Of a stretch of DNA of 64,000 nucleotides, positions 28,277-63,614 are shown in pieces (position 1 is the stretch's first letter; the number at the start of each line of letters is the position of its first letter). The notes beneath the pieces are model-generated. The model was not told the origin of the DNA and did no database searches. It saw only the letters and a list, made by a program, of their open reading frames with translations. The position numbers and the translations under genes were made by a program. Source of the DNA: Laspinema palackyanum D2a (lineage in GTDB: Bacteria; Cyanobacteriota; Cyanobacteriia; Cyanobacteriales; Laspinemataceae); NCBI GenBank assembly GCA_025370845.1, contig JAMXFF010000014.1:16082-80081 (forward strand), read 5' to 3'.

Positions 28277-28843
28277 ATGACCAAACAAAATCAGCCGGAA
28301 AACCACGGACTCAATTACATCACTGCCAATCGCTTTTATGTGGAGATGCAGGAAACAAACTCCATCTCCGCTTGTTTTAGCGAATGTTCGGGTTTGAGCG
28401 TTACGGTTAACTATGACACCTATTTTGAAGGGGGAGTCAACAACCAACAGCGAATTATCCTGGGAAACACCCAATTTTCAGAAGTCACCCTCAAACGAGG
28501 GTTAACCAATGATGCCGCATTTTTGGGTTGGGCATCCCGAATGCTCACTAAAATCAGTCCGGATAATGCCGCTAGTCCCCAGCGTCGGAATATCAATATT
28601 TTACTATTTAATACAGCCGGAGAAACGATTCAGTGTTGGACCCTCATCGGGGCGGTTCCCGTTGCCTGGAGAGCACCGGCATTAAGGGCAGATGCCTCAA
28701 CCGTGGCGATCGAAGAGTTATCTTTGGCTTATGAAGGTTTAAGTGTTTCTGTGGATACTGACCCCGGTGGCGGTGGCAATGCTCTCGGTGGCGGTGCAAT
28801 TGTTCACGAGATTGTCAGGGCTGTCGGTGGGTTCTTTATTTAG
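28277..28843 (+). CDS. CIS inner tube protein (Afp1/gp19-like, phage tail region family)
   Basis: 188 residues. The pattern NRFYVEMQETNSISACFSEC, FEGGVNNQQRIILG, LKRGLTNDAAFLGW and NINILLFNTAGE is that of the T4 gp19/Afp1-type tube or tube-initiator family (conserved phage tail region proteins). Such hexameric rings stack to form the needle or adapt it to the baseplate. The C-terminus is Gly-rich (DPGGGGNALGGG) before a hydrophobic end, an unusual extension. As one tube-type gene without a neighbouring sheath gene, it may be the baseplate-proximal tube-initiator copy. It starts the tight run of CIS genes. Confidence 0.88.
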   Translation: MTKQNQPENHGLNYITANRFYVEMQETNSISACFSECSGLSVTVNYDTYFEGGVNNQQRIILGNTQFSEVTLKRGLTNDAAFLGWASRMLTKISPDNAASPQRRNINILLFNTAGETIQCWTLIGAVPVAWRAPALRADASTVAIEELSLAYEGLSVSVDTDPGGGGNALGGGAIVHEIVRAVGGFFI

Positions 28844-29710: not shown

Positions 29711-30184
29711 ATGCCTGGTAACAACATTGCATCCGGGAAACTGGAAAAAGCAAAACTAATTTCCCAAGAAAGCGACACCATCGAATTCATGTTCAACCCC
29801 ACCGAATTGGTATTCGACCAATCCGTTAGCGTCAATCCCAGTCGAGGTGCGCGGACCAGTTCCGGATTATCTAAAGTCAGCTTTGCCCATCCCGAACCCT
29901 GCACCCTCACCATTAGTAACATCATCTTTGATAGCTACGAAAGCGGCAAAAGCATCCTCCCCTCTATCAATCTGCTAAAACAAGCCGTCAGTTTTGCCAC
30001 CAAAGGAACTGCCGCAAAAAAACGTCCTCCCACCTATATTTTTGCATGGGGACAACAACAATATATGCGCTGTTTCGTTACCCGACTCAGCTATCGATTA
30101 ACCCGTTTTTTACCTGATGGAACTCCCGTGCAAGCGCGAGTAGATTTGACCCTGACTGAAGTGGATAAAGCAACTGGGAAGTAG
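29711..30184 (+). CDS. CIS baseplate-tube adaptor (Afp7-like, CIS_tube domain, no LysM)
   Basis: 157 residues. Motifs IEFMFNPTELVFDQSVSVNP, HPEPCTLTISNIIFDSYE, and PPTYIFAWGQQQYMRCFVT with LPDGTPVQARVDLTLTE are those of the Afp7/Pvc7/gp53-type tube-baseplate adaptor. Many relatives add a C-terminal LysM domain; this one stops right after the core (KATGK) and lacks it. It is next to the VgrG gene, as in other CIS loci. Start ATG with GAGG upstream. Confidence 0.85.
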   Translation: MPGNNIASGKLEKAKLISQESDTIEFMFNPTELVFDQSVSVNPSRGARTSSGLSKVSFAHPEPCTLTISNIIFDSYESGKSILPSINLLKQAVSFATKGTAAKKRPPTYIFAWGQQQYMRCFVTRLSYRLTRFLPDGTPVQARVDLTLTEVDKATGK

Positions 30185-30312: not shown

Positions 30313-32472
30313 ATGACAGCAATCTCTTACTTAGCTCAACCTAGCTTAAAAATAGATGGAACCGAGGCATCGGAAAAATTAAGGGCAGATATTATAGAAA
30401 TCTCCGTAGAAGAAAGCATTCATCAGCCGGGAATGTTTACCCTGATGATTAACAATGACTACTTCCCGGGGACGGGAGAACCCTGGGGACATGAGAAATT
30501 ATTTGCCATTGGTAAACCCATCGAAATTGGGTTTAGTTCCAGTACCACCGAAGCCCCGGAATTTTCCAAAGGCAAAACCACCGCCAATCTATTTAAAGGA
30601 GAGATTACCTCCATTGAATGTAGCTTTACCGAAACCTCAGAAGCTACTATGCTGATTCGTGGCTATGATGTGGGACATCGCCTGCATCGCGGGAGATATA
30701 ATCGGTCCTTTCAAAATATGAGCGATACCGATATCCTGAAAAAAGTGATTGGGGAAGTGGGAATCACCAGTGGGACTATTGATTCCAGCGGTTCTCCCCA
30801 TGATTATGTGTTTCAAGAAAACCAAACTAACATGGAATTTCTCCGGGAACGAGCCACCCGCAATGGATTTGAACTGTTCGTTCAGGATGGAAAGCTTAAT
30901 TTTAGAAAACCCAAAGCAGGCAGCACCTTAGAATTAAAATGGTTGCGGGATATCCATAGTTTTCGCGTGCGAGTTTCCAGTACGGAACAGGTCAGTTCGG
31001 TGGAGGTACGGGGGTGGGATTACAAACAAAAAAAAGCAATTGTTTCTAAGGCAAATTCGGCCACGGTTTTAACGACAACCCAATATCAAGAAGGTAAAAA
31101 AACCAGTTCGGCTTTCAATGGTAAACCTTCCAAAGCCACGATGATAGTGGTGGATAAACCCGTTTTTAGTAATAAAGAAGCTGATACGATCGCCCAATCT
31201 TTGTGCAATGAATTAGGCGGAGAATTTGTCCAGGCTGATGCCGTTGCTGAAGGCAATCCCGACATTCGCACCGGCAAAGTAGTCCAATTTGCCGACATGG
31301 GAAAATATAGCGGCAAATACTATATTACCGAAGCTCGTCACCTTTATCAAGAGGGGACTTACACCACAGAATTTAGTGTGCGAGGGTTGCGGGCGGATGA
31401 TATTGCAACCACCGTCGCACCGGAAACGCGACTGGAACCGGGACAAACCATGATGGTAGGAGTGGTTTCTAATAATAACGACCCGGACGGATTAGGACGA
31501 GTGCGGGTGAAATTTCCCACCCTCACAGAAGAACATGAAAGTAATTGGGCGCGGGTGGTGGCGATCGGGGCTGGACCCGCTCGCGGATTTGACTGCTTGC
31601 CGGAAATCAATGATGAAGTATTGGTTGCCTTTGAACATGGAGATATTCATCGACCTTATATCATTGGGGGTGTATGGAATGGCAAAGATAAACCCCCGGA
31701 AAAAGTCGCCGAATCCGTCGCCGGTGGCAAAGTGCGGCTCAGAACGATTAAAACTCGTCTCGGGCATAAATTGCAATTTGTCGAAGAAGATAAAGGCAGC
31801 AGTAAAAAAGGGATTTATATTGAAACCGTTGATGGAGATAAACATAAACTGCATCTGAATGATACGGAGAAAAAGATAGAAATGAAAACCAGCGGGGCTC
31901 ATTACCTGCTGTTAGATGATAAAAAGAAAAAACTCGAAGCCAAAACCAATGGCGGTCATACCGTTTTAATGGATGATAATGGCAGCAAAAAGATAGATGT
32001 CACCTCCGTGGGGGACATGAACGTAAAAACCGGGAGTTCGGGAAAAACGCGCACCCTCAAAGTCGATGCGGGGGAAATTCAAGTCACCGGAATGACTAAA
32101 ATTGTGCTGAAAGTTGGCCCGAGTAGCATTGAAATATCCAATGGGGGCATTAAGATTAATAGCCCTAAAGTGGAAGTCGTCGGAAGCGCAGCAGTCGAGA
32201 TTAAATCCCCACTTAAAGTTGACATTAGTAGCGCAGCTCAAGTCAATGTCAGTTCAGCCGCGAAAGTTGCGATTCAAGCCGGAGCCGCTCTGGAGGCTAA
32301 AGCGGGGGGTAAATTGGATCTCCTAGCTGGCGGGACCTTAACTGGCTTGGCAGGGGGTTCGGTAAGTTTGACCGGTGGGGCTGGAGCGAATATTACCACC
32401 GGGGCCTCGTTCCAAGTGACGGCAGGTGTAACTGCGGGGATTGTAGCACCCCTGATTCGCCTCAACTGTTGA
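30313..32472 (+). CDS. CIS spike protein (VgrG/Afp8-like, gp27-gp5 fusion)
   Basis: 719 residues. Residues ~1-360 resemble the gp27/GpD hub (LKADIIEISVEES variant, ENQTNMEFLRERATRNGFEL, TEARHLYQEGTYTTEFSVRG). Residues ~375-465 are the OB-fold gp5 part (DPDGLGRVRVKFPTL, GFDCLPEINDEVLVAF, DIHRPYIIGGVWNG). The C-terminal ~230 residues are a repetitive beta-helix (KLHLNDTEKKIEMKT, IEISNGGIKINSP) that becomes Ala/Gly-rich, ending APLIRLNC. It forms the trimeric hub and membrane-piercing spike. The PAAR gene follows at 97 bp. Confidence 0.92.
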   Translation: MTAISYLAQPSLKIDGTEASEKLRADIIEISVEESIHQPGMFTLMINNDYFPGTGEPWGHEKLFAIGKPIEIGFSSSTTEAPEFSKGKTTANLFKGEITSIECSFTETSEATMLIRGYDVGHRLHRGRYNRSFQNMSDTDILKKVIGEVGITSGTIDSSGSPHDYVFQENQTNMEFLRERATRNGFELFVQDGKLNFRKPKAGSTLELKWLRDIHSFRVRVSSTEQVSSVEVRGWDYKQKKAIVSKANSATVLTTTQYQEGKKTSSAFNGKPSKATMIVVDKPVFSNKEADTIAQSLCNELGGEFVQADAVAEGNPDIRTGKVVQFADMGKYSGKYYITEARHLYQEGTYTTEFSVRGLRADDIATTVAPETRLEPGQTMMVGVVSNNNDPDGLGRVRVKFPTLTEEHESNWARVVAIGAGPARGFDCLPEINDEVLVAFEHGDIHRPYIIGGVWNGKDKPPEKVAESVAGGKVRLRTIKTRLGHKLQFVEEDKGSSKKGIYIETVDGDKHKLHLNDTEKKIEMKTSGAHYLLLDDKKKKLEAKTNGGHTVLMDDNGSKKIDVTSVGDMNVKTGSSGKTRTLKVDAGEIQVTGMTKIVLKVGPSSIEISNGGIKINSPKVEVVGSAAVEIKSPLKVDISSAAQVNVSSAAKVAIQAGAALEAKAGGKLDLLAGGTLTGLAGGSVSLTGGAGANITTGASFQVTAGVTAGIVAPLIRLNC

Positions 32473-33592: not shown

Positions 33593-35824
33593 ATGGACTT
33601 TGATTTTTTACCGAATTTACCTAAATCAGATTTAGACGATCGCAAGTTTCAGGACTTGGTGGATGAGTGCCTGCTGCGGATTCCTCGCTACTGTCCGGAA
33701 TGGACGAACTACAATCCCAGTGACCCTGGGGTAACCCTGGTGGAACTGTTCGCCTGGATGACGGACCAAATGTTGACCCGGTTTAATCAGGTGCCGCGTC
33801 GGAATTATGTGACGTTTTTAGAGTTGTTGGGGGTGCGCTTACGTCCACCAACTCCGGCTAAAACGGAGGTGACGTTTTATATGAGTGCCACCTTACCAGA
33901 AAATTACACCATTCCCATAGGGACGGAGGTGGCAACGGTACGGACGGAAGAGGAAGAGGCGATTGTCTTTAGTACCGATGCGCCAGTATCAGTGGGCAAA
34001 CCTCGGATCCGGCATTTGTTAACGGCACCCTCTGCGGAACAGGAACCCCAGATTTTGCGCGATCGCTTCATCGGGTCTTGGCGCATGGAACGCACCGGGG
34101 AATGGCAGGGGTTAGAGTTACCCTTTTTTGACGATACTCCAGAACCGGGCAATTGCTTTTACCTCGTCTTTGATTCAGAAGCGCTCATCGAAGGGAATGT
34201 CATCGCCCTCACCCTGAAAGGGGAAGCCGCCACCTCCACCGGCATTAACCCCGAGATGCCTCCGAGACGGTGGGAAGGGTGGAATGGGGAACGGTGGCAA
34301 CCTATCCTCCTCCATGAATCGGACGATAAAACCCAAGGGTTCAGTTTTAGCGAAATTGTCCGCGAAGGGGGCGACCCCCTCTCTGGGGCCGATGTGGTGC
34401 TGCATACGCCGAAAACTTGGCCGGTGACGAACTTTTTTACCTACCAAGGTCGGTGGATCCGCTGCGTTTATACCCAACCGGGGACTTATCAAGCGGGATA
34501 TACGCGATCGCCCCGCATTGTCGGGTTGAGCGCCCGGTCCATTGGCGGCAGTGTCACCGCTTCTCAAAGCACCCTGATTCGCAATGAAATCCTCGGGGAA
34601 AGCGATGGCAATCCCGGACAAACCTTTCAGATCCAGGGGGTGCCGGTACTGCCGCGACGAGAAGACGAATATATCCTGATCACCCCCATCGGCGGCTTAC
34701 CCCAAATCTGGCAAGAAGTCAATGATTTTTCCACCTCCGGGCCGGAAGACTTGCATTACACCCTGGATTCCCTCACGGGAAAAGTTCAGTTCGGACCCCT
34801 GATCCGCGAACCGACGCAATTGCGGGAAAAAATGGCTTGGCGGGCATCGGAACAAGGGGCGCGTCAGGGTTCCTTGACTTTAGCCAATGGACGCCAGGGC
34901 GATCGCCATGCCTTTGAACCGATGACCGCCACGGGAATCGAGTCGATGGAACGACAATATGGAGCAGTCCCCCCCCGAGGGGCAAATATTCAAATTGTCA
35001 GTTACCGCACCGGAGGCGGACTGCGAGGGAATGTCCAAGCCGGAACCATTTTAATTGTCAAATCCGCAGTGCCTTATGTTGCTGCGGTGATTAACCATCT
35101 GCCGGGACGAGGGGGGGCCGATAGCGAATCCCTGGATGAAGCGGTGATCCGGGCTCCGCGAATGCTCCGCACCCGCGATCGGGCCGTCACTGTAGAAGAC
35201 TTTGAAACCCTCACCCTGGAAGCAGGCGCCGGTGCCGTCGCTCGGACCCTCTGCTTACCCCCCACCCACAAATCCGAAGCAGGAACCGTGCGGATGCTCC
35301 TGGTTCCCAAACCGGACACCCTGAGCATTGAACGGGGGGAAGGCATTGACCCGGACTTGTTCAACCTCTCCCCAGTCCTGATCAATCGCGTCTTGACCTA
35401 TCTGGACGATCGCCGTTTACTGGGAGTTGCCGTGAAATGCAACCAACCCGACTATATGGGGGTATCGGTGCAAACCGAAGTGGCCCTCAAACCGGAATAT
35501 AAAAACCCCAGTGCCCAACAGCAAATCATCTTTTCCATGCAGGTGGCGCTGTATCGCTTTCTCAACCCCCTCACCGGGGGACCGGACAGGACCGGCTGGC
35601 CCTTTGGACGCCCGGTGTATCCCTCAGATATTGTCACCATCCTGCAAAATATTCCCGGGGTCCTCTACCTCGGTTCCGTCCAACTCTTTGAACTGCGGCT
35701 GCGTAACGGGGTTTGGGTGCGAAGTCTCCCCCGAGACCCCGTAATCAACCCCGGTCCCTTGGGGTTAGTCTGTTCCTGGCGCAATGATACCCTGCGATCG
35801 GGTCACACCATCAGTGTCATCTAA
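33593..35824 (+). CDS. Putative baseplate assembly protein, baseplate J-like (Afp11-like)
   Basis: 743 residues. The N-terminal hallmark is CPEWTNYNPSDPGVTLVELF with AWMTDQMLTRFNQVPRRNY, shared by CIS and actinobacterial phage-like J proteins. The C-terminal baseplate J core has RAPRMLRTRDRAVTVEDFE, PPTHKSEAGTVRMLLVP and RVLTYLDDRRLLGVAV. It forms the wedge ring with the gp25 and tail-I proteins. The length is in the usual range (650-950). Confidence 0.92.
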   Translation: MDFDFLPNLPKSDLDDRKFQDLVDECLLRIPRYCPEWTNYNPSDPGVTLVELFAWMTDQMLTRFNQVPRRNYVTFLELLGVRLRPPTPAKTEVTFYMSATLPENYTIPIGTEVATVRTEEEEAIVFSTDAPVSVGKPRIRHLLTAPSAEQEPQILRDRFIGSWRMERTGEWQGLELPFFDDTPEPGNCFYLVFDSEALIEGNVIALTLKGEAATSTGINPEMPPRRWEGWNGERWQPILLHESDDKTQGFSFSEIVREGGDPLSGADVVLHTPKTWPVTNFFTYQGRWIRCVYTQPGTYQAGYTRSPRIVGLSARSIGGSVTASQSTLIRNEILGESDGNPGQTFQIQGVPVLPRREDEYILITPIGGLPQIWQEVNDFSTSGPEDLHYTLDSLTGKVQFGPLIREPTQLREKMAWRASEQGARQGSLTLANGRQGDRHAFEPMTATGIESMERQYGAVPPRGANIQIVSYRTGGGLRGNVQAGTILIVKSAVPYVAAVINHLPGRGGADSESLDEAVIRAPRMLRTRDRAVTVEDFETLTLEAGAGAVARTLCLPPTHKSEAGTVRMLLVPKPDTLSIERGEGIDPDLFNLSPVLINRVLTYLDDRRLLGVAVKCNQPDYMGVSVQTEVALKPEYKNPSAQQQIIFSMQVALYRFLNPLTGGPDRTGWPFGRPVYPSDIVTILQNIPGVLYLGSVQLFELRLRNGVWVRSLPRDPVINPGPLGLVCSWRNDTLRSGHTISVI

Positions 35825-35860
35825 ACTCTGTGAAAATCCGTGCAATCCGTGGTTCAACCA
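35825..35860. repeat. Dispersed CTGTGAAAATCCGTGCAA-type repeat
   Basis: The segment directly before the tail-I start codon has a close copy at 53641-53672 and a partial one at 58140-58168. It explains an upstream GTG-opened frame (KIRAIRGST...) as non-coding. Confidence 0.8.
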
Positions 35861-35862
35861 TC

Positions 35863-36948
35863 ATGACTCAAGCCCGTGACACCCTCCCCTTAAGACTGCA
35901 ATTGGTGCCCATGCAAGTGCCAGAAGCACCGACTCAGCCGGTGGGACGGTGGCATGAAGCTTTGGAGATTGCCGAAGGGGTGCGATCGCCCACCGTCAAC
36001 GGCAGGAATCTCTTGCCACCCCCCAGAAATCGCTGTGACCTCGTGTTGCATCCAGGAGAACCCAGCGAAATCCTCGTCACACTGGAAAACATCGGCCTTC
36101 GCCCCCTTACCGTCAATGCCGCAGTGACGGGCAATTTTCCCCCAGAGTGGTGCCAGTTGGGAACCGAAGGTCACGAACTGCCTCCGGGAGGCACGATGGA
36201 AGCGGTCCTCTACTTCAACGTTCCCCCCAACTTCTTCGAGAGTCCAGAGATTATCAGTGCCAATCCTGCGCTTTTGGATTTTCAAGGCTACTTGAGCGTC
36301 TCCTGCACCGAGGAAAATCGCACCGGAGAACATCGGGATTCCGCTGCCTTCAACCTCTACCTCCGTCCCCGGAGTCTCTACCTGGAATTTTTACCGGAAC
36401 TCTACCAGGAAGTAGACTTCATCGGTCGATTGCTCTCTATTTTTGAGCAGAGTTTTGAACCGACGGTTCAGGCGATGGATGCAATCTGGGCTTACCTCGA
36501 CCCCTTGATGGCTCCAGAAAGCCTGTTACCCTTTTTGGCCTACTGGGTGGGTTGGGAAATCGACCCCCATCTGAGTCTGGCACAACAGCGCTATCTCATC
36601 CGCTATGCGATCGAACTCTACCGTTGGCGCGGCACTCGTCGGGGATTGCGTTTTTATCTGTATCTTTACACCAATTTGCCTCTGGATGAACATCTTCCCG
36701 AAGATGAAAAACATATCAGTATTCAAGAGGTTTTTACTCAGGGATTAGTTATGGGCAGGAGTCGTCTGGGGCAAGATACGATTATTGGAGGGGGACAACC
36801 CTATCATTTTATTGTCAAACTGCGACCGGACTATCCCAACCAAATTGATGAAAGATTAGTTAGAAAAATTATCGAACAAGAAAAACCGGCGTTTTGTACT
36901 TACGACCTTTATATCAATCCCGTTAATACCATCCAGCGTATTGAGTAA
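35863..36948 (+). CDS. Phage tail protein I / wedge protein (Afp12-like)
   Basis: 361 residues. The first ~160 form an Ig-like beta domain (LHPGEPSEILVTLENIGLRP, PPGGTMEAVLYFNVP). The C-terminal half is the conserved tail-I core: YLEFLPELYQEVDFIGRLLS, FEQSFEPTVQAMDAIW, PFLAYWVGWEI, and YRWRGTRRGLRFYLYLYTN. ATG 35863 is chosen because the preceding 35 bp are a dispersed intergenic repeat. Ig-like N-terminal extensions of this kind also appear in the membrane proteins downstream (40514, 42809), hinting that they share a partner. Confidence 0.88.
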   Translation: MTQARDTLPLRLQLVPMQVPEAPTQPVGRWHEALEIAEGVRSPTVNGRNLLPPPRNRCDLVLHPGEPSEILVTLENIGLRPLTVNAAVTGNFPPEWCQLGTEGHELPPGGTMEAVLYFNVPPNFFESPEIISANPALLDFQGYLSVSCTEENRTGEHRDSAAFNLYLRPRSLYLEFLPELYQEVDFIGRLLSIFEQSFEPTVQAMDAIWAYLDPLMAPESLLPFLAYWVGWEIDPHLSLAQQRYLIRYAIELYRWRGTRRGLRFYLYLYTNLPLDEHLPEDEKHISIQEVFTQGLVMGRSRLGQDTIIGGGQPYHFIVKLRPDYPNQIDERLVRKIIEQEKPAFCTYDLYINPVNTIQRIE

Positions 36949-38499: not shown

Positions 38500-38563
38500 T
38501 ATTCCTGTTCGTATAGCCTGCCGGATACCGGGCTAATTTTAAGCTACATCATGGGGAAAAGAG

Positions 38564-40483: not shown

Positions 40484-40513
40484 TTTTAATAATTTAGATA
40501 CAAAAGCAATAGC

Positions 40514-42748: not shown

Positions 42749-42754
42749 GGGTTG

Positions 42755-42798
42755 ATTGGGTCATTGGTGGTTGGTCATTTGTGGTTGGTCATTCAAGG
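42755..42798. repeat. STRR-like heptamer repeats
   Basis: GGTCATTGGTGGTTGGTCAT units repeat between the two Ig-like/TM genes. Confidence 0.8.
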
Positions 42799-42808
42799 AG
42801 CAGAATGA

Positions 42809-45517: not shown

Positions 45518-45521
45518 ACCG

Positions 45522-45548
45522 CCCCTGGGGGGAGAGCAGGGGGTTTTA
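45522..45548 (+). terminator. Probable intrinsic terminator after the Ig-like/TM gene
   Basis: CCCCTG (45522-45527) pairs with CAGGGG (45537-45542), followed by GTTTTAAAAAA. It lies 5 bp past the stop. A short stem, so moderate strength. Confidence 0.6.
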
Positions 45549-45602
45549 AAAAATATCTCTCTTGAGCGTAATAGTTATGTTTACCCCCAGAAAAACAGGT
45601 TA

Positions 45603-47171: not shown

Positions 47172-47192
47172 TAACAAAAGCAGGAAAATCTT

Positions 47193-48887
47193 ATGAATAA
47201 ACAGCTTGTAAAAACCGGAAGCAATTCAGTAAAAATCGGGATATCCATTCTATTGATGATGGCTGGGATGGAGGTGGGAGGCGGCAACTCTCGGCTATTG
47301 GCACAGGAGGGGTTAGAGGATTTTTCCCATTGGGCGGGGTTATGTCGCACCTTGCTGCAACAAGGGCAATATGAGGAAGCAGTGGCCGCCTGTGATGCTG
47401 CGATCGCCTTAAATACCAATGACCCCATCGTTTGGAGCGATCGCGGAGATGCCTTATTTGCCTTGACCCAGTATGCCGAAGCCGTCGCCGCCTACAACCA
47501 AGCCATTGAACGCGACCCCAACAATTCCCTATTACTCACAAAACGCTGTTCTGGGTCAGTCGAACTGAGTCAATATGAAGAGGCAGTTGCCTCCTGTGAC
47601 ACTGCCTTACGCATGGATAACAACTGGGAAAACCAATCCCCTGCGGTTGCCTGGTATCATCGCGGGGTCGCCTTGAGTCGTTCCGGCCAAATTGAAGAAG
47701 CCCTCGCCTCCTACGAATGGGCGATTAAAATCAATCCCAATTATTCCATCGCCTTAGCGGGACGATGCGGCATTCTCTCGGAATTGGGACAAGGCGCAGA
47801 AGCGCTGACTGCTTGCGATCGCGCCTTGCAAGTCAATGAAAATTGGGGAACCCTCAACGAAGCCGTTGCCTGGGCGAACAAAGCCAGACTGCTCAAATCC
47901 CAAAGACGCTATGACGAAGCCCTCGCTGCCTACGATCGCGCCTTGGGATTGGAACCCAATGATGCTGCATCCTGGACGGAACAAGGCATTATCCTCGGCA
48001 TCCTCGGCAGACATCCGGAAGCACAACTCTCCTTCCAATGGGCGGTTAAAATTAATCCCCAATCTTCCTTTACCTTGCTGCATCAATGCGCCAACTTGAA
48101 CCGATTGGGCAGCTATGAACCGGCAAAAGCGGCTTGTGAAATGGCACTGCAGGAGGGAGATGGGAATTGGGGCGACTTGGGACCGGCTTATGCCTGGGTA
48201 CAGTTAGCCAATGCCTTGACGGGACTGACAAATTATGAAGAAGCCCTGGCTGCTTCTAATAAGGCGATCGGACTCAATCCGCAGTTAGCCGATGCTTGGA
48301 GTAATCGCAGCGTTCCCCTGTGGCATTTGAACCGAGAGCAAGAAGCCTTAGCCGCCACCGAACGGGCGATCGCAGTCGCCCCCGGGTCATCCTTAGCTTG
48401 GTTTAATCAAGGGCGAATTCTCACCGGATTAGGCCGATATGATGAAGCTGTGGATGCGTACAATCGCGCCTTGAGAGGGGATGCCAATGTAGGCGATCGG
48501 CCCACAATGGCGGATATTTGGGTGAATCAGAGTGCGGTCCTCTATCGCTTAGAACGCTATGCCGAGGCAGTCGCCTCCGCTGACAGCGCCCTAGGAATGT
48601 CCCCGGAATCCGCCCCCGCCCTCTACAATCGCGCCCTCGGACTAATGGCATTGCGCCGTTATGGGGAAGCGGTCACGACTTACGAACGCGCTATCCAAAT
48701 TAATGCTGAAAATGCTGACTTTTGGGCAGGCAAAGGCATCGCCCTAAGATTTTTAGAAGAATATGGGGATGCCTTAGCTGCGACGCAAAAAGCGTTGGAA
48801 CTGAATCCGACTCATTCTCAAGCTTTGATTAATCAAGAGATGATTCTGGAGGAGATGAGTCAGCCGAATCCGACTTCTCAGAATTAG
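47193..48887 (+). CDS. Secreted TPR-repeat protein
   Basis: 564 residues, 21 bp after the pentapeptide gene and likely co-transcribed. The N-terminus is hydrophobic (ISILLMMAGMEVGGGNSRLL), consistent with a signal peptide. About thirteen tetratricopeptide repeats follow with consensus phrases YEEAVAACDAAIALNTNDPI, YDEALAAYDRALGLEPNDAA and YGEAVTTYERAIQINAENAD. Several pairs alternate a cysteine-containing form with a normal one (KRCSGSVEL, GRCGILSEL, HQCANLNRL). TPRs bind partner proteins; no enzymatic domain is present. Confidence 0.88.
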   Translation: MNKQLVKTGSNSVKIGISILLMMAGMEVGGGNSRLLAQEGLEDFSHWAGLCRTLLQQGQYEEAVAACDAAIALNTNDPIVWSDRGDALFALTQYAEAVAAYNQAIERDPNNSLLLTKRCSGSVELSQYEEAVASCDTALRMDNNWENQSPAVAWYHRGVALSRSGQIEEALASYEWAIKINPNYSIALAGRCGILSELGQGAEALTACDRALQVNENWGTLNEAVAWANKARLLKSQRRYDEALAAYDRALGLEPNDAASWTEQGIILGILGRHPEAQLSFQWAVKINPQSSFTLLHQCANLNRLGSYEPAKAACEMALQEGDGNWGDLGPAYAWVQLANALTGLTNYEEALAASNKAIGLNPQLADAWSNRSVPLWHLNREQEALAATERAIAVAPGSSLAWFNQGRILTGLGRYDEAVDAYNRALRGDANVGDRPTMADIWVNQSAVLYRLERYAEAVASADSALGMSPESAPALYNRALGLMALRRYGEAVTTYERAIQINAENADFWAGKGIALRFLEEYGDALAATQKALELNPTHSQALINQEMILEEMSQPNPTSQN

Positions 48888-50841: not shown

Positions 50842-53310
50842 TTAGAAGAATTCGGATTCCCACTTGCCGTTGTTATAAGTGAATTCGATGAGTCTACTTG
50901 CCTTCTCATATTCGGCAGACAATTCAGCCGGGTCATTTCCGTCTCCTTTTTCTTTTCCTTTTAGTCCCAATTCATACTTCTCCATTCGCATAACCTTTAT
51001 GCTTGCTTTGGTCATTTTAGGATGAACCGTAGAGATATTTTCGGTGAAACTGAGACTAAATTTAACAGATTGAGAGCTTTTCAAAACACTTGCCTCGGGA
51101 GGAAAAGCTGATTTTGATATTTGCTTAGCTGCTGTTCTTATGTTCCATAGGGACATAGCCACATCAGAAAATTTGGGTTCACCTTTGAGTTTATTAATAG
51201 AAGGCTCTAAAGAGTCTGCAAATGCTATTATTGCATTTATGACATTAGTGAATTTTCCAGTTTGAAAACTAATTTCACCTTCCCTTTCCTGGGCCTCTCG
51301 TGTGATTTTCAAGACAGCTTCTCCGATGCCTTTGAGTTTGAGTTTCGCTTCTATAATATGCCTTGAAGTAGATTGTCCTTGGTATGACGAGGTCGAATGT
51401 TTTCTGCCGTTAGTGTACTTATAACTTAATTCAAACCCTGCGTTATCATTCTTTGCACCTACCGTAGCTTTTACTAAATCTCCTGTGTCAACATAGCTAT
51501 CTTTTACCTTATCCAAAACTTCGCCTCGTAATTTGGCTTCCCAGGCATCAACAATCCATTTTGCTTTGCCTTCATCGTTTGTTTCACCAGACCAAATTGC
51601 ATAAGCTATTTTATTGGGAACCACCGAACTCTCAAGTGCTTTTCTATAGAACCCATAAGAAATCAGTTTAATAGCATTATAAGCATTATCTGCTTGAGCT
51701 TCTGAATAAAAACCTACAGATGCTTTAAACTCAAGGCCCCATAGCTTAACGCCCCCTTCTAAAACGGCTTCCACTCGGAGCTTAAATTGGTTTTCTTGGC
51801 GTTCAGCTTCTACTTCTAATCCAAGACCAACAAAAAACGGCGGCTTAAGCGGTATTTTTAGAGTAAATTTAAAAGTTGCACTGCCATTCATAGGGACAGC
51901 CAACTCAATAGCTGATGCCACCTGTGTAAGTAGTACAGAATTTATAGAAGTCTGAGTGGCTAGGTATTTAATCTCCGCTGAATCCGTTTGAGTATTGGTT
52001 AAAATCTGATAATGAGATTCAAATTGGGCAATTTGCCAGTTCATTTCCTTTCGAGTCTCCTCCAAAGCCCATCTGGAATTATCCCAATTATGCAAAAAAG
52101 TTGTGTATAGGGAACTTAATCCCCACCGATCCACAAGGTCATTAGCTGCATATAGATGTTTTAAAATATCTAATACATTAGTAGTTGCTATGTTAATTCC
52201 TTCGGATGTTGTAAGATCGGCGCGACAAATGGAGTCCCTAACACGCAAATAGAAATCTTTCGCACGCCATACCTCCGTTGGAATAATCTGGTCCGCATTA
52301 CGTCCCCGCGACCTATCACTAGTAATATCAGTTCTAGGCATATCCTTCTGGATGTTATTCCTAATCTCCCATCCCCACTTATGACCCTGATCCCCAAGAC
52401 TGCTATTCCTTATTCGTGCTTTAACGTCTGCTAAGTTTCCTGCTCGTATGTTTTGACGGATCGTTTCTAGTTGAGATGCTTGTTGAGATTGTCTATTGAC
52501 ATTATTGTTATTACTAGAACGCTGGATAACCGAACTACCGCTTTGTTGAATCGTATGAGTCAATTCATGAGCGGTCAAATGGTCATTGCCGGGAGATTTT
52601 CCCTCCCCATAATAGATATGATTGCCGTGGGTAAACGCTTGTGCGCCCAACTCTCGGTTCATTTGGACGGCAGGGGCATCTGTATGCACTCGCACACCGC
52701 TAAAATCTGCCCCAAAACGAGGTTCCATCTGGGCGCGAATTTGTGGGGATAAAGGACTCCCAGAATTCTTAGTTTGATTCAGTTGAGTTTCTAGGGAACT
52801 CGGCGCATCCAGATTACCATCCCCTGCAGCTTGCACTCTAATCCGGCGTTGAATCCGGCCTTTTTTAGCTTCCCCTTGTTCTTCTTCTATGGCTGACCCT
52901 AACGGTTCTAGCTGCATTTGAGCGATGGAGGCCACTGGAGTGATGGTAGCAGCAATCGGTTTGGCTTGGGCCAGAGGAGTTTGGGTTGTAGCATTTGTCA
53001 CAGGTGTGGGCGCAGAGACCGCAGGCATTCTCATGACTGTATCGGCAATGGTATCGGCTTCTCGCTCGAATTTATCCCCCGGTGCGCCAATGGTGAGTTT
53101 AGGTTGAATGAGTGGGGGTGCAGAAAAGTCTATGCGCGAGAGGCGGCTTCCCCCCATTTCCCCCGGTTCTACCTTCGTTTGCAGTTCCGGTGCCGTTGCT
53201 GCTTCGGGTTCGGCAGCCTGGGCAAAAGGACGGAGTTTAAACATCCCCGTGGCAGAAGTCGGTGTAGAGTTTGATGGTCCTTTTTTTTGAATCTGCCGTC
53301 CGCTTGCCAT
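50842..53310 (-). CDS. DUF4157 CIS cargo/effector protein with unknown C-terminal domain
   Basis: 822 residues. An N-terminal segment shared with the second cargo (GRQIQKKGPSN, ATGMFKLRPFA, LIQPKLTIGAPGDKFEREAD) leads to DUF4157 at ~180-260, with HELTH at 248-252, the HExxH zinc-metalloprotease motif, preceded by FGADFSGVRVHTDA. DUF4157 is a known marker of extracellular CIS cargo. After ~270 the chain is helical (VWRAKDFYLRVRDSICRADL) and then beta-rich around 480-700 (FKFTLKIPLKPPFFVGLGLE, GGVKLWGLEFKASVGFYSEA). I do not recognise this C-terminal region; a toxin domain is the usual expectation. Start ATG 53310. Confidence 0.85.
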   Translation of the reverse strand: MASGRQIQKKGPSNSTPTSATGMFKLRPFAQAAEPEAATAPELQTKVEPGEMGGSRLSRIDFSAPPLIQPKLTIGAPGDKFEREADTIADTVMRMPAVSAPTPVTNATTQTPLAQAKPIAATITPVASIAQMQLEPLGSAIEEEQGEAKKGRIQRRIRVQAAGDGNLDAPSSLETQLNQTKNSGSPLSPQIRAQMEPRFGADFSGVRVHTDAPAVQMNRELGAQAFTHGNHIYYGEGKSPGNDHLTAHELTHTIQQSGSSVIQRSSNNNNVNRQSQQASQLETIRQNIRAGNLADVKARIRNSSLGDQGHKWGWEIRNNIQKDMPRTDITSDRSRGRNADQIIPTEVWRAKDFYLRVRDSICRADLTTSEGINIATTNVLDILKHLYAANDLVDRWGLSSLYTTFLHNWDNSRWALEETRKEMNWQIAQFESHYQILTNTQTDSAEIKYLATQTSINSVLLTQVASAIELAVPMNGSATFKFTLKIPLKPPFFVGLGLEVEAERQENQFKLRVEAVLEGGVKLWGLEFKASVGFYSEAQADNAYNAIKLISYGFYRKALESSVVPNKIAYAIWSGETNDEGKAKWIVDAWEAKLRGEVLDKVKDSYVDTGDLVKATVGAKNDNAGFELSYKYTNGRKHSTSSYQGQSTSRHIIEAKLKLKGIGEAVLKITREAQEREGEISFQTGKFTNVINAIIAFADSLEPSINKLKGEPKFSDVAMSLWNIRTAAKQISKSAFPPEASVLKSSQSVKFSLSFTENISTVHPKMTKASIKVMRMEKYELGLKGKEKGDGNDPAELSAEYEKASRLIEFTYNNGKWESEFF

Positions 53311-54413: not shown

Positions 54414-57400
54414 ATGGCAACCGGACGGCACATCCAGAAAAAAGGACAATCGAATACTACACAGACTCCCGCCACTGGGATGCTCAAACCCCGTCCCTTT
54501 GCCGAACCCGCCCAAACCGAATCAGCAACAACACCAGAACTTCAAACACAGGTGGAATCGGGGCAGGTAGGGGGCGATCGCTTGTCTCGCCTCGACATTT
54601 CTGCACCCCCATCGATTCAACCCAAACTTACAATTGGGGCACCGGACGATAAATTTGAGCAAGAAGCCGACACCATTGCTCGCAAAGTGGTCAAGCAAAT
54701 TAGTGTACCCACACCCCCGGATGCGAAGGGCGAGGGTGGATCCGTGCAACGTCAAATGTTCTCTACACCCTCAATCATGAGACTGACGGTCCAATGCCAG
54801 GAAGCGATCAAAGGAGGAAAGGCTTCGTCAGATTTGGAAAGCAGCATCAGCCAAGCTAAAAGTGGCGGCTCTCCACTAGATAATGCCATTCGTCCCAAGA
54901 TGGAGAGCGCCTTTGGTACAGATTTTAGCAGCGTGCGGGTTCATACCGATGCAAATTCCGATAGCTTAAATCGTTCTATCAGCGCTCGTGCTTTTACCAC
55001 TGGGCAGCACATTTTCTTTAAGAAAGGGGAATATAATCCGAGCCATTCTGGGGGGCAGGAGTTGATTGCCCATGAGTTGACTCATGTGGTGCAGCAGAAT
55101 TCTAGTAAAGTGCAGCCGAAGTTGGATAGCACAAGCATTCAGCGCGCACCAACCGTGCAAAATGCTCCTGCTGTAGATCCGGGAAGAATTAACCAAGCCG
55201 CTGAGGATCTGCGTAAAGCAATGAAAGGATGGGGCACTAATGAAGCTCTCATTATGCGAACTCTGAATAATAAAACTGCAGCAGAACTAGCGGCAATTGA
55301 AGAAAAATACCTGGAAATGTATGGTCGCACCCTTGAGTATGATTTGCGGGATGAGCTATCTGGAAAAGACTTAAACCAAGCAATGGGGTATTTATCTAAA
55401 GCAAGAGAAGAAAATAAAGCAAAAGTCACTGCTGTTGAAAAGGAAACTGACACTCCAGAGACTAAAGAATTAGTGAACTCTCAGGAGATGCTACAATCTG
55501 CTGACGCTTTGTATAAAGCGATGGAAGGTTGGGGAACTGATGAAAAGACCATTATGAATACTTTAAGAGGGAAAAGTCTCCAACAAATTGAAGCAATTAA
55601 ACGAGTTTATTTAGATCACTATGGAAGATCATTAGAACATGATCTAAAAGATGAACTTTCAGGAAAAGATTTAAAAGAAGCTTTAGCCTATTTAAGAGCG
55701 GACGCAGCAGAATCGGCAGCTAAAGGGCTAGAGAATTCATTGTCATGGCTTAATGATGACGAAGAAAAAATAGAAGAGATTTTGATGTCACTCCCAGATG
55801 CAGAAATTGATCGCCTGCAGAAAAATCATCCCGAAACCATTCGGAAGCTTCTTTCTAGTCTGGGCGGATTTGATAAGATGGTAGTTCTAGCACTTTTAGC
55901 TAAGAAGAAGCCCTTGGCTATTGCTTATCGCTTACAAGACGCAATGAAAGGCTGGGGAACGGATGAAAAAGCCGTTCAAAAATATCTTCAGGAACATAAG
56001 ACAGAGCTACCTCAGATTAAGCTAGAATATAAGAAGCTTACGAAGAGGGAGCTAGAAACAGATATCGATAGTGAATTTTCTGATAACTGGTTAACAGGAG
56101 CAGAAAAGACACTCACTAAATCCCTCCTTGCAACTGATCCTTATACGCAGGCGGCTGCCCGCATTTATAACGCAGCGTATGGTGCCGGAACTAATGAAGC
56201 CGCAATTTACAACGAATTTAAAGGGAAGAGCAAAGAAGAATGCGAAAAAATTAAGGAAGCCTATGATAAGAATCATGGTGGGGAAGGTGCTTTCCAGAGA
56301 ATGATTCACGATGAGTTTAGTGACCTTGGCTGGGGTAAGGAACTGACCAAAGTCCAACAATATAGCACCGATGGAAAACTTGATCCAGTCTTTGCTCTAA
56401 AAGACGCAATGAGTGGGATTGGAACTAACGAAGAGCAAATCAAGGAAATTCTCGGTGATAAGACAAAACCAGAAATTCAAGCTATCAAAGCTAGGTACAA
56501 AAAAGAGATAGGGAAGGACTTAGAAAAAGAGCTAGAAAGTGAACTCGGCGGTCGGGATTGGCATGAAGTTAAGCTCATGCTAGGTGGAAAACCAGAAACT
56601 ATGTCTGAAAAATGGCTGGTCATTAAGGCCAGGTACGACTTTGAAATTGGGGGAGGATCTTGGGCCTTTTCTCGTTGGGTTATGTCTTCTGCTCAAGATT
56701 TAGGGTTTACAACGAGCAAATTACAACTAGAAAAGCAATATTCGCGGCTTCAGCAAATTTATGACGAAAAGACGGGTCTAAAAGAGGGCTACACAGAGCA
56801 AGATTTTGAGCGAGTCTATAACTATACCGAGACAGATGTAAAGAACTATGAAGAAGCTAAGAACGCTGTCACAGATGCTATCGTCACAGGTGTAAATATT
56901 GGAGCGGCAATTATAGCCACCTGCCTCACAGCAGGAGGTGCAGGTCCTTGGTTAGTAGTAGCTGTAACGGCTGCCGCTGGTGGAATAGGAATAGCAATCA
57001 AATACGGCATACAGGGTGATGCTTACGGTTTAGAGGACGTTGCAATTGATGCTGTGGTCGCAGCAGTAACTGCTGCTCTAGCTGGAGTAGCGGAAGCTAA
57101 AGGACTGGCAGACAAGCTCGATGAACTTGCTAAGGTGTTTGGAGACAAATTTGCTAATAGTGTGTTTAAGGGATTTATGGTTGGAGCTATTAAAGGTGGT
57201 GCTAATGATGCAATTATTAAGGGTTTAGAAACTGTCTTGAAGAGTGACAAGCTACGCGACAGTTTCCTGGATGCTTTGATGGAAATTGGTGATCAAGGAC
57301 TCATTGCAGGTTTTAAGGGATTGCTAAAAGCGGGTACAGCAGGTTTTGCTGATAGTGCCAGCGATGCCTGGAAAGTGATAGCTGCGGGAGTTACTGAGTC

Positions 57401-57461
57401 TTCCAATTCTACATATGATTATGCCTCTTCAAATACCAATTATTACGGCCAACCCGCTTAG
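54414..57461 (+). CDS. DUF4157-annexin CIS cargo protein with hydrophobic C-terminal region
   Basis: 1015 residues. Residues 1-~100 match the other cargo (GRHIQKKGQSN, ATGMLKPRPFA, PKLTIGAPDDKFEQEAD). DUF4157 is at ~147-230 with HELTH at 220-224. Five annexin-type repeats follow, with GxGT(N/D)E loops at 272-277, 372-377, 513-518, 590-595 and 668-673. Each has an acidic residue 38-41 positions after its Thr (D313/E314, D413/E414, E554, D633/E634, E710), the type II calcium-site spacing. Residues ~815-895 are Gly/Ala-rich and hydrophobic (VNIGAAIIATCLTAGGAG, AVTAAAGGIGIAIKYG), possibly membrane-inserting. Annexin repeats bind acidic lipid surfaces in a calcium-dependent way, so membrane targeting of an injected protein is a natural inference. 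Confidence 0.88.
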   Translation: MATGRHIQKKGQSNTTQTPATGMLKPRPFAEPAQTESATTPELQTQVESGQVGGDRLSRLDISAPPSIQPKLTIGAPDDKFEQEADTIARKVVKQISVPTPPDAKGEGGSVQRQMFSTPSIMRLTVQCQEAIKGGKASSDLESSISQAKSGGSPLDNAIRPKMESAFGTDFSSVRVHTDANSDSLNRSISARAFTTGQHIFFKKGEYNPSHSGGQELIAHELTHVVQQNSSKVQPKLDSTSIQRAPTVQNAPAVDPGRINQAAEDLRKAMKGWGTNEALIMRTLNNKTAAELAAIEEKYLEMYGRTLEYDLRDELSGKDLNQAMGYLSKAREENKAKVTAVEKETDTPETKELVNSQEMLQSADALYKAMEGWGTDEKTIMNTLRGKSLQQIEAIKRVYLDHYGRSLEHDLKDELSGKDLKEALAYLRADAAESAAKGLENSLSWLNDDEEKIEEILMSLPDAEIDRLQKNHPETIRKLLSSLGGFDKMVVLALLAKKKPLAIAYRLQDAMKGWGTDEKAVQKYLQEHKTELPQIKLEYKKLTKRELETDIDSEFSDNWLTGAEKTLTKSLLATDPYTQAAARIYNAAYGAGTNEAAIYNEFKGKSKEECEKIKEAYDKNHGGEGAFQRMIHDEFSDLGWGKELTKVQQYSTDGKLDPVFALKDAMSGIGTNEEQIKEILGDKTKPEIQAIKARYKKEIGKDLEKELESELGGRDWHEVKLMLGGKPETMSEKWLVIKARYDFEIGGGSWAFSRWVMSSAQDLGFTTSKLQLEKQYSRLQQIYDEKTGLKEGYTEQDFERVYNYTETDVKNYEEAKNAVTDAIVTGVNIGAAIIATCLTAGGAGPWLVVAVTAAAGGIGIAIKYGIQGDAYGLEDVAIDAVVAAVTAALAGVAEAKGLADKLDELAKVFGDKFANSVFKGFMVGAIKGGANDAIIKGLETVLKSDKLRDSFLDALMEIGDQGLIAGFKGLLKAGTAGFADSASDAWKVIAAGVTESSNSTYDYASSNTNYYGQPA

Positions 57462-57482: not shown

Positions 57483-57962
57483 ATGGAAACAAGTTCAACC
57501 TCCGACTACTTAAGAATTGAGGCTTCGGCAGTCAAGCTGCTTGCTGCTTTTGGGACAACGAGGGAAGGGGCAGTTTTAGGCGAAATTGCCCGGGACAGTT
57601 TGCAGCCCAGAGATGAAGATTATGCTCAGATTTTTGTGCCAGAAGCCGTGGAAATCGCCCAAAAAGGATATAAAGAACTTTGGGCAGAGTCTCCCGTTCC
57701 TCAACCTCAACCCGGTCAGACTGAAATTTTAATTGCTCTTGGGCGTGCTGAAGAACTCTCATCTGAATCAGGAATAGCAGAGGTCTTTCCCGGTGGGTAT
57801 CAAAGCATAGGCCATTACCTACTGCCCGACAAAGTTTGGTTGACTTGGAAATATGTTAAACCCGGAGAAACTAGCGGGATGACCTATGATGGTTTAGTTT
57901 GGTTAGAAGAGCGTTTCGCTTGGTTTCCCAAACCTTGGAAAGTGCTATCGCCGCTTTTATGA
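57483..57962 (+). CDS. Hypothetical protein encoded directly after the annexin cargo
   Basis: 159 residues, 21 bp after the cargo stop, so probably co-transcribed. The N-terminal half is helical (YLRIEASAVKLLAAFGTTRE, VPEAVEIAQKGYKELWAE); the C-terminal half is beta/aromatic (YLLPDKVWLTWKYVKPGE, GLVWLEERFAWFPKPW). No signal peptide or known motif is seen. By position it is the counterpart of the YbjN-like partner of the first cargo, so a chaperone or immunity role is possible, but no similarity between the two partners is evident. I do not recognise the family. Confidence 0.6.
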   Translation: METSSTSDYLRIEASAVKLLAAFGTTREGAVLGEIARDSLQPRDEDYAQIFVPEAVEIAQKGYKELWAESPVPQPQPGQTEILIALGRAEELSSESGIAEVFPGGYQSIGHYLLPDKVWLTWKYVKPGETSGMTYDGLVWLEERFAWFPKPWKVLSPLL

Positions 57963-61601: not shown

Positions 61602-63614
61602 TCACACCCATCCCTTCACCTCCATATCTGTCAAAGGTCTTTCTAATTTCATATATTCACTTTTTGACGCTTCGAGGATATGTTTCATCATCACGGGTTC
61701 GTTAGCATCGGCGGCAATAAAGGCGGAGTTTAAAGCAATATTGCGGATGTTTCCTCCAGCGACGTTGAGTTTACCGAGTTTAGGATAGTTTAAGCCTTGG
61801 GTTGGGGTTTGTTTGGGGAAGATGCGTCGCCAAATTTCTTCCCGTTGATTGGCGTCGGGGAAGGGGAATTGAATGACGAAGCGGATGCGGCGAAGGAAGG
61901 CTTGGTCTAAGGAACTTTTGAGGTTGGTGGTGAGGATGGCTAATCCTCGATAGGCTTCCATCCGTTGCAGGAGGTAGGCGACTTCGATGTTGGCATGGCG
62001 ATCGTGGGAGTCTTTGACTTCGCTGCGTTTACCAAATAAGGCGTCGGCTTCGTCGAAGAGGAGGATGGACCCGCCTGCTTCGGCTGAGTCGAAGACTCGG
62101 CGCAGGTTTTTCTCGGTTTCGCCGATATATTTACTAATGATGGAACTAAGATCGATGCGATACAGATCCAGGTGCAGTTCTTGGGCGATAATATCGGCGG
62201 CCATTGTTTTACCTGTACCACTGGCACCGGCAAAGAGGGCGGTGATGCCTAATCCTCGGCCACTTTTGCCGCCAAATCCCCAAGTTTCGTAAACTTTGGC
62301 CCGTTGTCGCACATGGGCGATGATTTCTCGCAGGGTGTCTCGTTGGATGTCGGGGAGTACAAGGTCCTCCCACTCGCTACCGGATTCAATGCGTTGGGCG
62401 AGGTCTTCCATGCGCGATCGCGCCTGGATGCGGCAAGTCTCCCACAGTTGGCTGCCAAAGTCGTTGCCGTTGTCGGTGGCAATCTTGTTGGTTCCTTTGG
62501 TTTTGAGGCAGGCAGCACGGATGGCGGGGGCACTGAGGCTAAAATGGGAGACTAAGGTTTCAATGTGACCGTTTAACTGCGCTGCGGCTGGACCGAGAGT
62601 GTTGACCCAGAGTTCCCGTTGTTCCTGGGACGAGGGTTGTTCGACTTCAAAGGTGATTAAGGGACGTTGCCGGGGATGGCGGCGATCGCGGCTGGTAATC
62701 AGTAAAGGATTATCATAGTTTTCGATAATGCGGGCGATCGCACTTTCTCGCGCCACATCATTGCTATCCACTTCATCACAATCTAATAGCAAGGCACTGT
62801 TATTTAAAAATGCCTCTCTCTCCCATAACCGCATCAATTCGGTGATTTCCCCCAAGGCAATGGGAATGACATCCCCTGCCATGACGTGCAGATTCCAACC
62901 GATCGCACTACAAACAGCCGAGGCGATCGCCCGTTTACTGGCAACATCACTGCCACATAATTGGACAATGGGCACCTTCCCCAACTCTTCACTCACCAGC
63001 ATTCCCGCCACCTGTTCGGCTAACTGGCGATGGGACCCACATAAACGGTCCATTTCTCCAACCTGGATGGGGATGCGGGAGACTGCTGCCACCAACCGTT
63101 CATCGGGATGCTCTATCCCGACTAAATAATGTAACACCCGTTCATCAATTCTCAGGGGACTCTGGGTCAAAGCATTCCCCACTCCAATCTCAATTAATCG
63201 CCACCGACGCAATGCGCCTACCGGCGTCAGTGCCATCCAATTCGGTGAAGGTAAGACATCTAAAGCCAGAGTAAAGGTAGGATATTGAGCTTGAGCATCC
63301 CCTTGAGCAGTAGCACAGAGTGTACCCCAAGTGCCATCCAGTTCCATCCCAGCGCATAATAGCAGGATGTCACGTTCAAAACCAGATAATCCAAAACGAT
63401 CGCCCAGTTCGTCTAAACTCGGAGGCGTGTCCAAATGCCAACCCCTTGGCTGTTCCTTTCCCGACACGAATTCTGCGGTATCAAATTCCGCCTCTGGATT
63501 CAGGCGTTGGACGTGAATCTGTAAATAGGAACGAACCCGGGCGATCGCCGCCATCAAATACTCTTGATTGGCGATCGACCAAGTTTTAGTCGGACTCATG
63601 TTGACTCCAGACAT
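61602..63614 (-). CDS. CIS-associated AAA+ ATPase (Afp15-like)
   Basis: 670 residues. The N-terminal ~400 hold a winged-helix-like and a degenerate first ATPase region (IPIQVGEMDRLCGSHRQLAE, SALLLDCDEVD, DNPLLITSRDRRHPRQRP). The active AAA+ module is at ~440-640, with Walker A GASGTGKT (463-470), Walker B ILLFDEAD (517-524), sensor 1 LTTNLK and arginine finger region FLRRIRFVIQFP. Large AAA+ ATPases of this layout are part of the CIS core set and act in assembly or cargo loading. The start abuts the stop of the preceding small gene (ATG 63614; a second ATG 15 bp later has GGAG upstream). Confidence 0.9.
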   Translation of the reverse strand: MSGVNMSPTKTWSIANQEYLMAAIARVRSYLQIHVQRLNPEAEFDTAEFVSGKEQPRGWHLDTPPSLDELGDRFGLSGFERDILLLCAGMELDGTWGTLCATAQGDAQAQYPTFTLALDVLPSPNWMALTPVGALRRWRLIEIGVGNALTQSPLRIDERVLHYLVGIEHPDERLVAAVSRIPIQVGEMDRLCGSHRQLAEQVAGMLVSEELGKVPIVQLCGSDVASKRAIASAVCSAIGWNLHVMAGDVIPIALGEITELMRLWEREAFLNNSALLLDCDEVDSNDVARESAIARIIENYDNPLLITSRDRRHPRQRPLITFEVEQPSSQEQRELWVNTLGPAAAQLNGHIETLVSHFSLSAPAIRAACLKTKGTNKIATDNGNDFGSQLWETCRIQARSRMEDLAQRIESGSEWEDLVLPDIQRDTLREIIAHVRQRAKVYETWGFGGKSGRGLGITALFAGASGTGKTMAADIIAQELHLDLYRIDLSSIISKYIGETEKNLRRVFDSAEAGGSILLFDEADALFGKRSEVKDSHDRHANIEVAYLLQRMEAYRGLAILTTNLKSSLDQAFLRRIRFVIQFPFPDANQREEIWRRIFPKQTPTQGLNYPKLGKLNVAGGNIRNIALNSAFIAADANEPVMMKHILEASKSEYMKLERPLTDMEVKGWV

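Follow-up and report, generated by a model that had tools for sequence, protein, structure and literature searches.

We analysed a stretch of 64,000 nucleotides from the cyanobacterium Laspinema palackyanum D2a (hereafter the window, to which all coordinates refer unless another locus is named) and found a gene at 54414..57461 whose product joins a DUF4157 domain and an array of annexin repeats in one chain. Sequence comparison confirmed the product as a DUF4157 cargo with true annexin repeats, lying at a contractile injection system (CIS) locus. The profile search proposed with the initial annotation of this gene matched both Annexin (PF00191, E 8.6e-60) and eCIS_core/DUF4157 (PF13699, E 2.3e-33) in Pfam, and the HExxH motif read by eye in the DUF4157 part was recovered by motif search as HELTH at residues 220-224, inside eCIS_core. 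A well-preserved annexin cargo of this sort is known in kind; what sets this one apart is an array of six repeats, five of which bear calcium-site signatures, the lack of a recognised toxin domain and a partner gene that stays with it, and we infer a mechanism for it below. The downstream partner, the swapping of C-termini on one N-terminus and the resemblance of the machine to a cytoplasmic CIS go beyond the initial annotation. The features of the gene and of its downstream neighbour are the following:

54414..57461, + strand: DUF4157-annexin CIS cargo gene, an open reading frame (ORF) with an ATG start, 1015 amino acids (aa), assigned with Pfam
54414..54752, + strand: N-terminal leader, residues 1-113, resembling the N-termini of other cargo of the genus
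54615-54671, + strand: IQPKLTIGAPDDKFEQEAD motif in the leader, residues 68-86
54873..55103, + strand: eCIS_core/DUF4157, residues 154-230, from Pfam
55182..55385, + strand: annexin repeat R1, residues 257-324, calcium loop at 272, acid E314
55482..55685, + strand: annexin repeat R2, residues 357-424, loop at 372, acid E414
55689..55913, + strand: degenerate annexin repeat R3', residues 426-500, without the GxGT loop, from hhalign
55905..56114, + strand: annexin repeat R4, residues 498-567, loop at 513, acid E554
56136..56345, + strand: annexin repeat R5, residues 575-644, loop at 590, acid E634
56370..56579, + strand: annexin repeat R6, residues 653-722, loop at 668, acid E710
56592..57458, + strand: Gly/Ala-rich C-terminal region, residues 727-1015, from hydropathy and a search of the order sample
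57483..57962, + strand: partner gene of an orphan family, 159 aa, after a 21-base gap

The annexin profile reached 199.2 bits over the whole cargo (cut-off 25); five stretches had an E value of 1 or lower, and four of them reached the cut-off when scored singly, while R5 obtained 16.1 bits. The motif GxGT(N/D)E occurred five times, as had been claimed from the letters alone, whereas residues 245-760, shuffled 20,000 times, contained it 0.0021 times on average and at most once. Successive loops were separated by 100, 141, 77 and 78 residues, the first two values agreeing with the initial estimates of about 100 and 141. A distant acidic residue followed at all five loops, although it lay 41-44 residues past the first Gly of the motif and not 38-41 as first stated. 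The predicted type II calcium-site signature of annexins (loop plus acid) can thus be recognised in five of the six repeats, R3' being the one that lacks it. Between R1 and R2 runs a linker some 32 residues long. L010 is the most distant relative, at 40-43% identity; there, R2 (with S in place of T) and R4 retained both loop and acid, R5 and R6 retained the GTDE part and the acid, and R1 had neither.

Structure prediction, the second check proposed at the outset, also pointed to annexins. The AlphaFold2 model of residues 249-1015 consisted of helical repeats, with blocks of predicted local distance difference test (pLDDT) values mostly of 60-89 up to about residue 728, and the predicted fold is that of the helical annexin repeat. 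Its best Foldseek match was annexin VI (1avc, E 1.1e-11), and annexin VI was also the best match of the cargo in a sequence search of PDB (E 2.5e-48). The structure-comparison matches listed were annexins, giardins and what appear to be annexin A2 fusion constructs; that no other kind stands among these rows carries no weight as evidence. Repeats R1-R4 aligned in order to four-repeat annexin cores, with a root-mean-square deviation of >20 A in the full-span rows and a predicted template modelling score (pTM) of 0.31.

The degenerate repeat R3' was searched with a profile built from the intact repeats of five related proteins, which gave a weak match between the second and third loop at the same place in all five. 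The single matches fell short of significance (E 0.016 to 0.52), but the five R3' segments aligned by hhalign to ten intact repeats with a probability of 79 and E 1.5e-5. As a control, the five-protein alignment was cut into 17 overlapping slices of 75 residues: the five intact-repeat slices scored E 3.8e-28 or better, R3' scored 5.3e-5 and the other eleven ranged from 0.21 to 0.84. The true scores ranged from 5.7 to 10.9 bits, and in none of the five proteins was the score equalled by any of 400 shuffles of the protein's own segment, with 1912 out of 2000 shuffles receiving any score; the weakest R3', that of L009 at 5.7 bits, scores less than the shuffles of other proteins do at best (up to 7.7). 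We therefore take the array to be one of six putative annexin repeats, one of them without the calcium loop. The odd spacing is partly explained, because R3' occupies the 141-residue gap, which is thus ruled out as a novel spacer. The earlier view, which took the spacing as a sign of a new or rare architecture, is not supported as stated: the larger gap hides a repeat, and the DUF4157-annexin fusion is no novelty in itself, having been published in 2012 and 2014 (PMC3482391, PMC3894181).

Beyond the array, hydrophobic windows fell within residues 819-893 (56868-57092), in keeping with the Gly/Ala-rich hydrophobic stretch noticed initially. We detected no toxin domain in the C-terminus above cut-off in Pfam or NCBIfam, and none in PADLOC or PHROGs. 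Two weak NCBIfam matches of the C-terminus, to a geobacillin-26 family (18 bits, cut-off 40) and to TIGR04388 (16.2 bits, cut-off 45), were not used, and the weak matches that the full-length cargo had in PHROGs were likewise set aside. Searched for by itself, the C-terminus was present in 5 out of 282 genomes of the order, the same five that carry the annexin cargo. Ratios of nonsynonymous to synonymous substitution (dN/dS), obtained by simple counting for one pair, the window cargo and its relative L036, were 0.09 in the DUF4157 core (where the 83 codons hold few changes), 0.30 for residues 1-150, 0.29 for the annexin array, 0.09 for residues 724-815 and 0.55 for residues 816-1015, the fastest part.

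The same five genomes (our own included) carried a relative of the partner gene directly downstream of the cargo gene, with 50-96% identity. It was found in no other of the 291 genomes of the order, and among 292 genomes drawn from the phylum only our own had it. Pfam, PHROGs, PADLOC, NCBIfam and PDB gave no noteworthy match for the family, and a structure model of the 159-aa product was rejected, its pLDDT being under 50 at all 159 residues. An apparent stop in the copy of genome G147 fits a natural end of the ORF at residue 154. We propose that the product is a dedicated partner of the annexin cargo, either a chaperone or an immunity protein.

When the whole cargo was compared with the 291 genomes of the order, 101 of them had a match with E no higher than 1e-20; in the listed part of these matches, those of all but five genomes were confined to the N-terminal 355 residues. 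These five were our own, G156 (89% identity), G115 (67%), G230 (71%) and G147 (43%). The closest named relative was Laspinema olomoucense D3b, with 88% identity in the best segment and residues 1-1015 covered. Within the genus (eight genomes), two had the annexin cargo, one had no match and five had a similar N-terminus (best identities of 65-73%). Ten DUF4157 frames were taken from the congener loci and one further locus of our own genome; a scan of eight of these frames found no annexin match at E 0.01 in any of the eight. Similar N-termini thus bear other C-termini in congeners, that is, a constant N-terminus is combined with an exchangeable C-terminus, and some of the congener cargo adjoins relatives of the same AAA or helix-turn-helix (HTH) genes. 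Two DUF4157 cargo frames of one congener locus (L071, 3579-5309 and 7082-8614) had C-terminal matches to Aspzincin M35 peptidase (27.6 and 33.2 bits, cut-off 30).

In a sample of 386 genomes of the phylum, PF00191 had matches at E 1e-3 in 23, and 12 of these exceeded the cut-off; one small-genome family accounted for 19 of the matching genomes, 9 of which exceeded it; the matches in this sample did not include G156, G115, G230 or G147. One member of that family (L038, among L038-L063) has a frame of 687 aa in which a stretch that looks EF-hand-like by eye precedes four annexin matches, all over the cut-off. Of the frames inspected there, those of L038, L039 and L043 alone were informative. The annexin array had no match at E 1e-3 in plasmid and phage collections. 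In viral contigs one locus matched the cargo over residues 25-310, and a Bacteroidota locus (L037) that matched residues 19-249 only was not used.

A search of the C-terminus against 388 genomes of the class gave, besides our own, two weak matches (E 5.9e-6 and 3.1e-5), both within giant frames of 2909 and 2757 aa:

L094:5025-13712, - strand: giant protein with a degenerate annexin-like array, Imm49 gene adjoining
L095:5035-13221, - strand: giant protein with a degenerate annexin-like array, Imm49 gene adjoining; the frame extends to the edge of the sequence stretch examined

When the whole cargo was compared with the giants, residues 375-511 (R2, R3' and the start of R4) aligned in order with a later piece, which in L094 comprised residues 583-733 (R5 and R6) and in L095 residues 660-1013 (R6 to the end, 23% identity, many gaps). 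Through the relatives L008 and L009, this second piece began at cargo residue 583, 604 or 660. DUF4157 and HExxH were absent from both giants. The related module is followed by over 1300 further residues and then, on the next gene downstream, by Imm49 (E 6.4e-22 and 4.8e-22). Judged by sequence, the giants have the layout of polymorphic toxins with the cargo-related module in the middle, which suggests that the module may serve delivery or anchoring there. Because this module stands beside Imm49 genes, the 159-aa partner gene of the cargo is of greater interest.

The surroundings of the cargo gene agree with the initial reading of DUF4157 as a mark of extracellular CIS (eCIS) cargo, since tube, spike and baseplate genes lie in the window and a sheath gene on the same contig:

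28277..28843, + strand: CIS tube protein (Phage_T4_gp19)
29711..30184, + strand: CIS_tube family protein
30313..32472, + strand: VgrG-like spike
33593..35824, + strand: baseplate J-like protein
35830..36948, + strand: Tail_P2_I baseplate protein
50842..53310, - strand: second eCIS_core cargo protein, 822 aa, with a different C-terminus, from Pfam
61602..63614, - strand: AAA ATPase of the CIS locus, a possible cargo loader, from Pfam

Beyond the window, the same contig carries a Pvc16-like gene, the sheath gene and three further tube genes. The sheath, the sole match in the genome, starts about 15 kb downstream of the annexin gene, which thus sits between two CIS gene blocks of one contig. The genome has four eCIS_core matches in all. 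For the AAA ATPase, Pvc15 offers a precedent as a stated cargo loader (PMC11495950). CIS genes were also present within 20 kb around L010. Between the CIS parts and the cargo, positions 37048-48887 hold DUF4159, Cache/HAMP/cNMP, WD40, NEW3, pentapeptide and TPR genes, several of which have close relatives beside cargo in congeners. On the other side, 58477-61305 (- strand) encodes a protein of 942 aa that combines a cysteine protease domain of the calpain family with RTX calcium-binding repeats and PPC domains; in L067 and L070 its relatives adjoin other cargo, which shows that it does not go with the annexin cargo alone. Pfam matches under the cut-off, to Myb among others, were treated as chance.

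The reading that we tentatively favour, and which we rate at a little under an even chance, is that the protein is an effector loaded into a CIS, which docks on acidic membrane at high calcium and inserts its hydrophobic C-terminus. It would be cargo of the CIS encoded around the annexin gene, and its leader and DUF4157 part would direct loading into the tube. After firing, calcium-loaded type II sites could dock the array on acidic phospholipid, as the conserved ligand residues suggest, and docking would take place where calcium is high, for example beside a punctured membrane. The hydrophobic C-terminal region would thereby be brought onto the bilayer and may insert, and the inserted C-terminus might then permeabilise the membrane or carry the tail across; these last two steps are the least certain. 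The product of the next gene would act as the dedicated chaperone or immunity protein. Homology, ligand residues, gene context and co-occurrence are the basis of this reading, which is supported by the restriction of both the C-terminus and the partner to the same five annexin-cargo genomes, by the other C-termini that similar N-termini bear in congeners and by the two giants, in which pieces of the array and the hydrophobic element come before an Imm49 gene.

Several observations weigh against the effector reading. The C-terminus matches no profile above any cut-off and its pLDDT is mostly under 40; for this reason hydropathy is the sole basis for the proposed membrane insertion. With a pTM of 0.31, the model gives little confidence in the packing of the repeats. 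The relative L009 (G230) lacks the DUF4157 core, although the leader motif is retained, and no CIS genes of the window's kind were found in the ~20 kb around L008 and L009. Both giants stay under the annexin cut-off of Pfam (18.4 bits in one, no match in the other) and have lost most calcium loops, with one or two GxG(T/S) motifs left, which means that the module does not depend on calcium in every setting. Finally, the partner is 96% identical to that of the nearest relative, versus 81% for the C-terminus, rates that appear unlike those of a co-diversifying pair of toxin and immunity protein; the slower change of the partner is therefore a mild argument for a chaperone over an immunity protein.

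Of the other explanations, the one that survives best, though we consider it doubtful, is that the system is directed at the producer itself: a cytoplasmic CIS would strike the cell's own or sister-cell membranes under stress, and the annexin cargo would bind at the influx of calcium and aid regulated death (or sealing). Among solved CIS, the sheath (E 4.5e-108), the baseplate J-like protein (E 4.4e-118) and the spike (E 7.2e-55) were closest to that of Streptomyces coelicolor, whose structures are 9GTP and 9GTR and which is described as residing in the cytoplasm, with a link to regulated cell death (PMC12237407); Tail_P2_I had 9gtp as its sole structure match (E 1.3e-6), and the Anabaena CIS was more distant in sheath (E 4e-47) and spike (3.1e-29). 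This support, however, comes from the similarity of machine parts alone, and the tube protein at 28277 ranks 9rce (E 7e-11), then 7adz and Anabaena (2.2e-10), ahead of 9gtp (2.8e-9). Conflict with others would account at least equally well for a dedicated partner and for the exchange of C-termini.

Slightly less probable still, and in our judgement unlikely, is that array and hydrophobic region together form a delivery module, with the last ~110 residues being a compact toxin and the 159-aa neighbour its immunity protein. The polymorphic layout of the congener cargo, the fast evolution of residues 816-1015 relative to array and core in the one pair compared, and the related module beside Imm49 genes in the giants are all in line with it, as is the proposal of 2012 that annexin is an accessory part in membrane breaching (PMC3482391). 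On the other hand, Pfam, NCBIfam, PHROGs and PADLOC recognise no toxin domain there, the partner family has no match in Pfam or PDB, and the gapped 23% alignment of L095 reaches cargo residue 1013, so the tail may belong to the module.

A further reading, for which we see only a slim chance, is a two-gene membrane effector gated by calcium: fired by a cytoplasmic CIS of the death type, the annexin array would sense the rush of calcium at a breached membrane, the hydrophobic tail would then insert, and the dedicated partner would keep the cargo inert in the producer. If this were true, an injected or suicide protein would have annexin as its calcium trigger, and annexin machinery would enter cyanobacterial regulated cell death; we know of no shown case of either. 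Least probable of all is a structural or tethering protein of the producer, whose annexin repeats would bind the particles to membrane via calcium with no injection: thylakoid-anchored CIS do exist in cyanobacteria (PMC8894136), but the N-terminus is common to other DUF4157 proteins of the genus and the annexin cargo occurs in only two of the eight genus genomes, unlike a structural part.

Five calcium-site signatures, an injection locus and a dedicated partner make this a directly testable case of a bacterial annexin. It would tie annexin membrane binding, studied mostly in eukaryotes, to the encounter of injected proteins with membranes, and perhaps also to cyanobacterial cell death.

Annexin domains have been placed among injected proteins before. 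In the 2012 paper, toxins delivered by Photorhabdus virulence cassettes (PVC) carry a single annexin domain that always precedes an enzymatic toxin, and the domain was proposed as an accessory membrane-breaching part (PMC3482391). The 2014 survey of bacterial annexins, the main text of which does not contain the string 'cyanobact', described DUF4157-annexin proteins of Haliangium and a Corallococcus protein with five annexin domains, and its account of function is put forward as hypotheses only (PMC3894181). PF00191 was listed in 2021 among predicted anti-eukaryotic eCIS effector domains, with one mention of annexin in the main text and no protein described there (PMC8213781). Our search of main-text literature, with supplements and most subscription papers outside it, found no description of a cyanobacterial annexin cargo.

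The Haliangium ochraceum proteins share with the Laspinema cargo the fusion of annexin to DUF4157 (there also named PVC-metallopeptidase) in one protein, and the 2012 paper attributed them to delivery of the PVC type; as described, they have a single annexin domain with an enzymatic toxin (2012) or two annexin domains (2014), versus six repeats here (PMC3482391, PMC3894181). Unlike them, the Laspinema cargo has a hydrophobic C-terminus without a recognised toxin domain, a dedicated partner and a cyanobacterial host. Eukaryotic annexins, of which annexin VI (1avc, 1m9i) is nearest, share the type II signature, the helical repeat and more than four repeats per chain; the Laspinema array differs in its six repeats with one loop-less, in the R1-R2 linker, and in being flanked by DUF4157 and a hydrophobic end. 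The two giants share the R2-R3', R5-R6 and hydrophobic C-terminal pieces in order, without DUF4157. As for the machine, the CIS of Streptomyces coelicolor and Anabaena have homologous sheath and spike, the baseplate J match being to Streptomyces only at the cut-off used. The thylakoid-anchored Anabaena CIS also encodes a putative DUF4157 cargo (PMC8894136), and the available text of the Streptomyces and Anabaena accounts, in contrast to what we describe for Laspinema, mentions no annexin cargo (PMC12237407, PMC8894136). The features that look new here are a six-repeat array, a hydrophobic C-terminus without a recognised toxin domain and a 159-aa partner gene.

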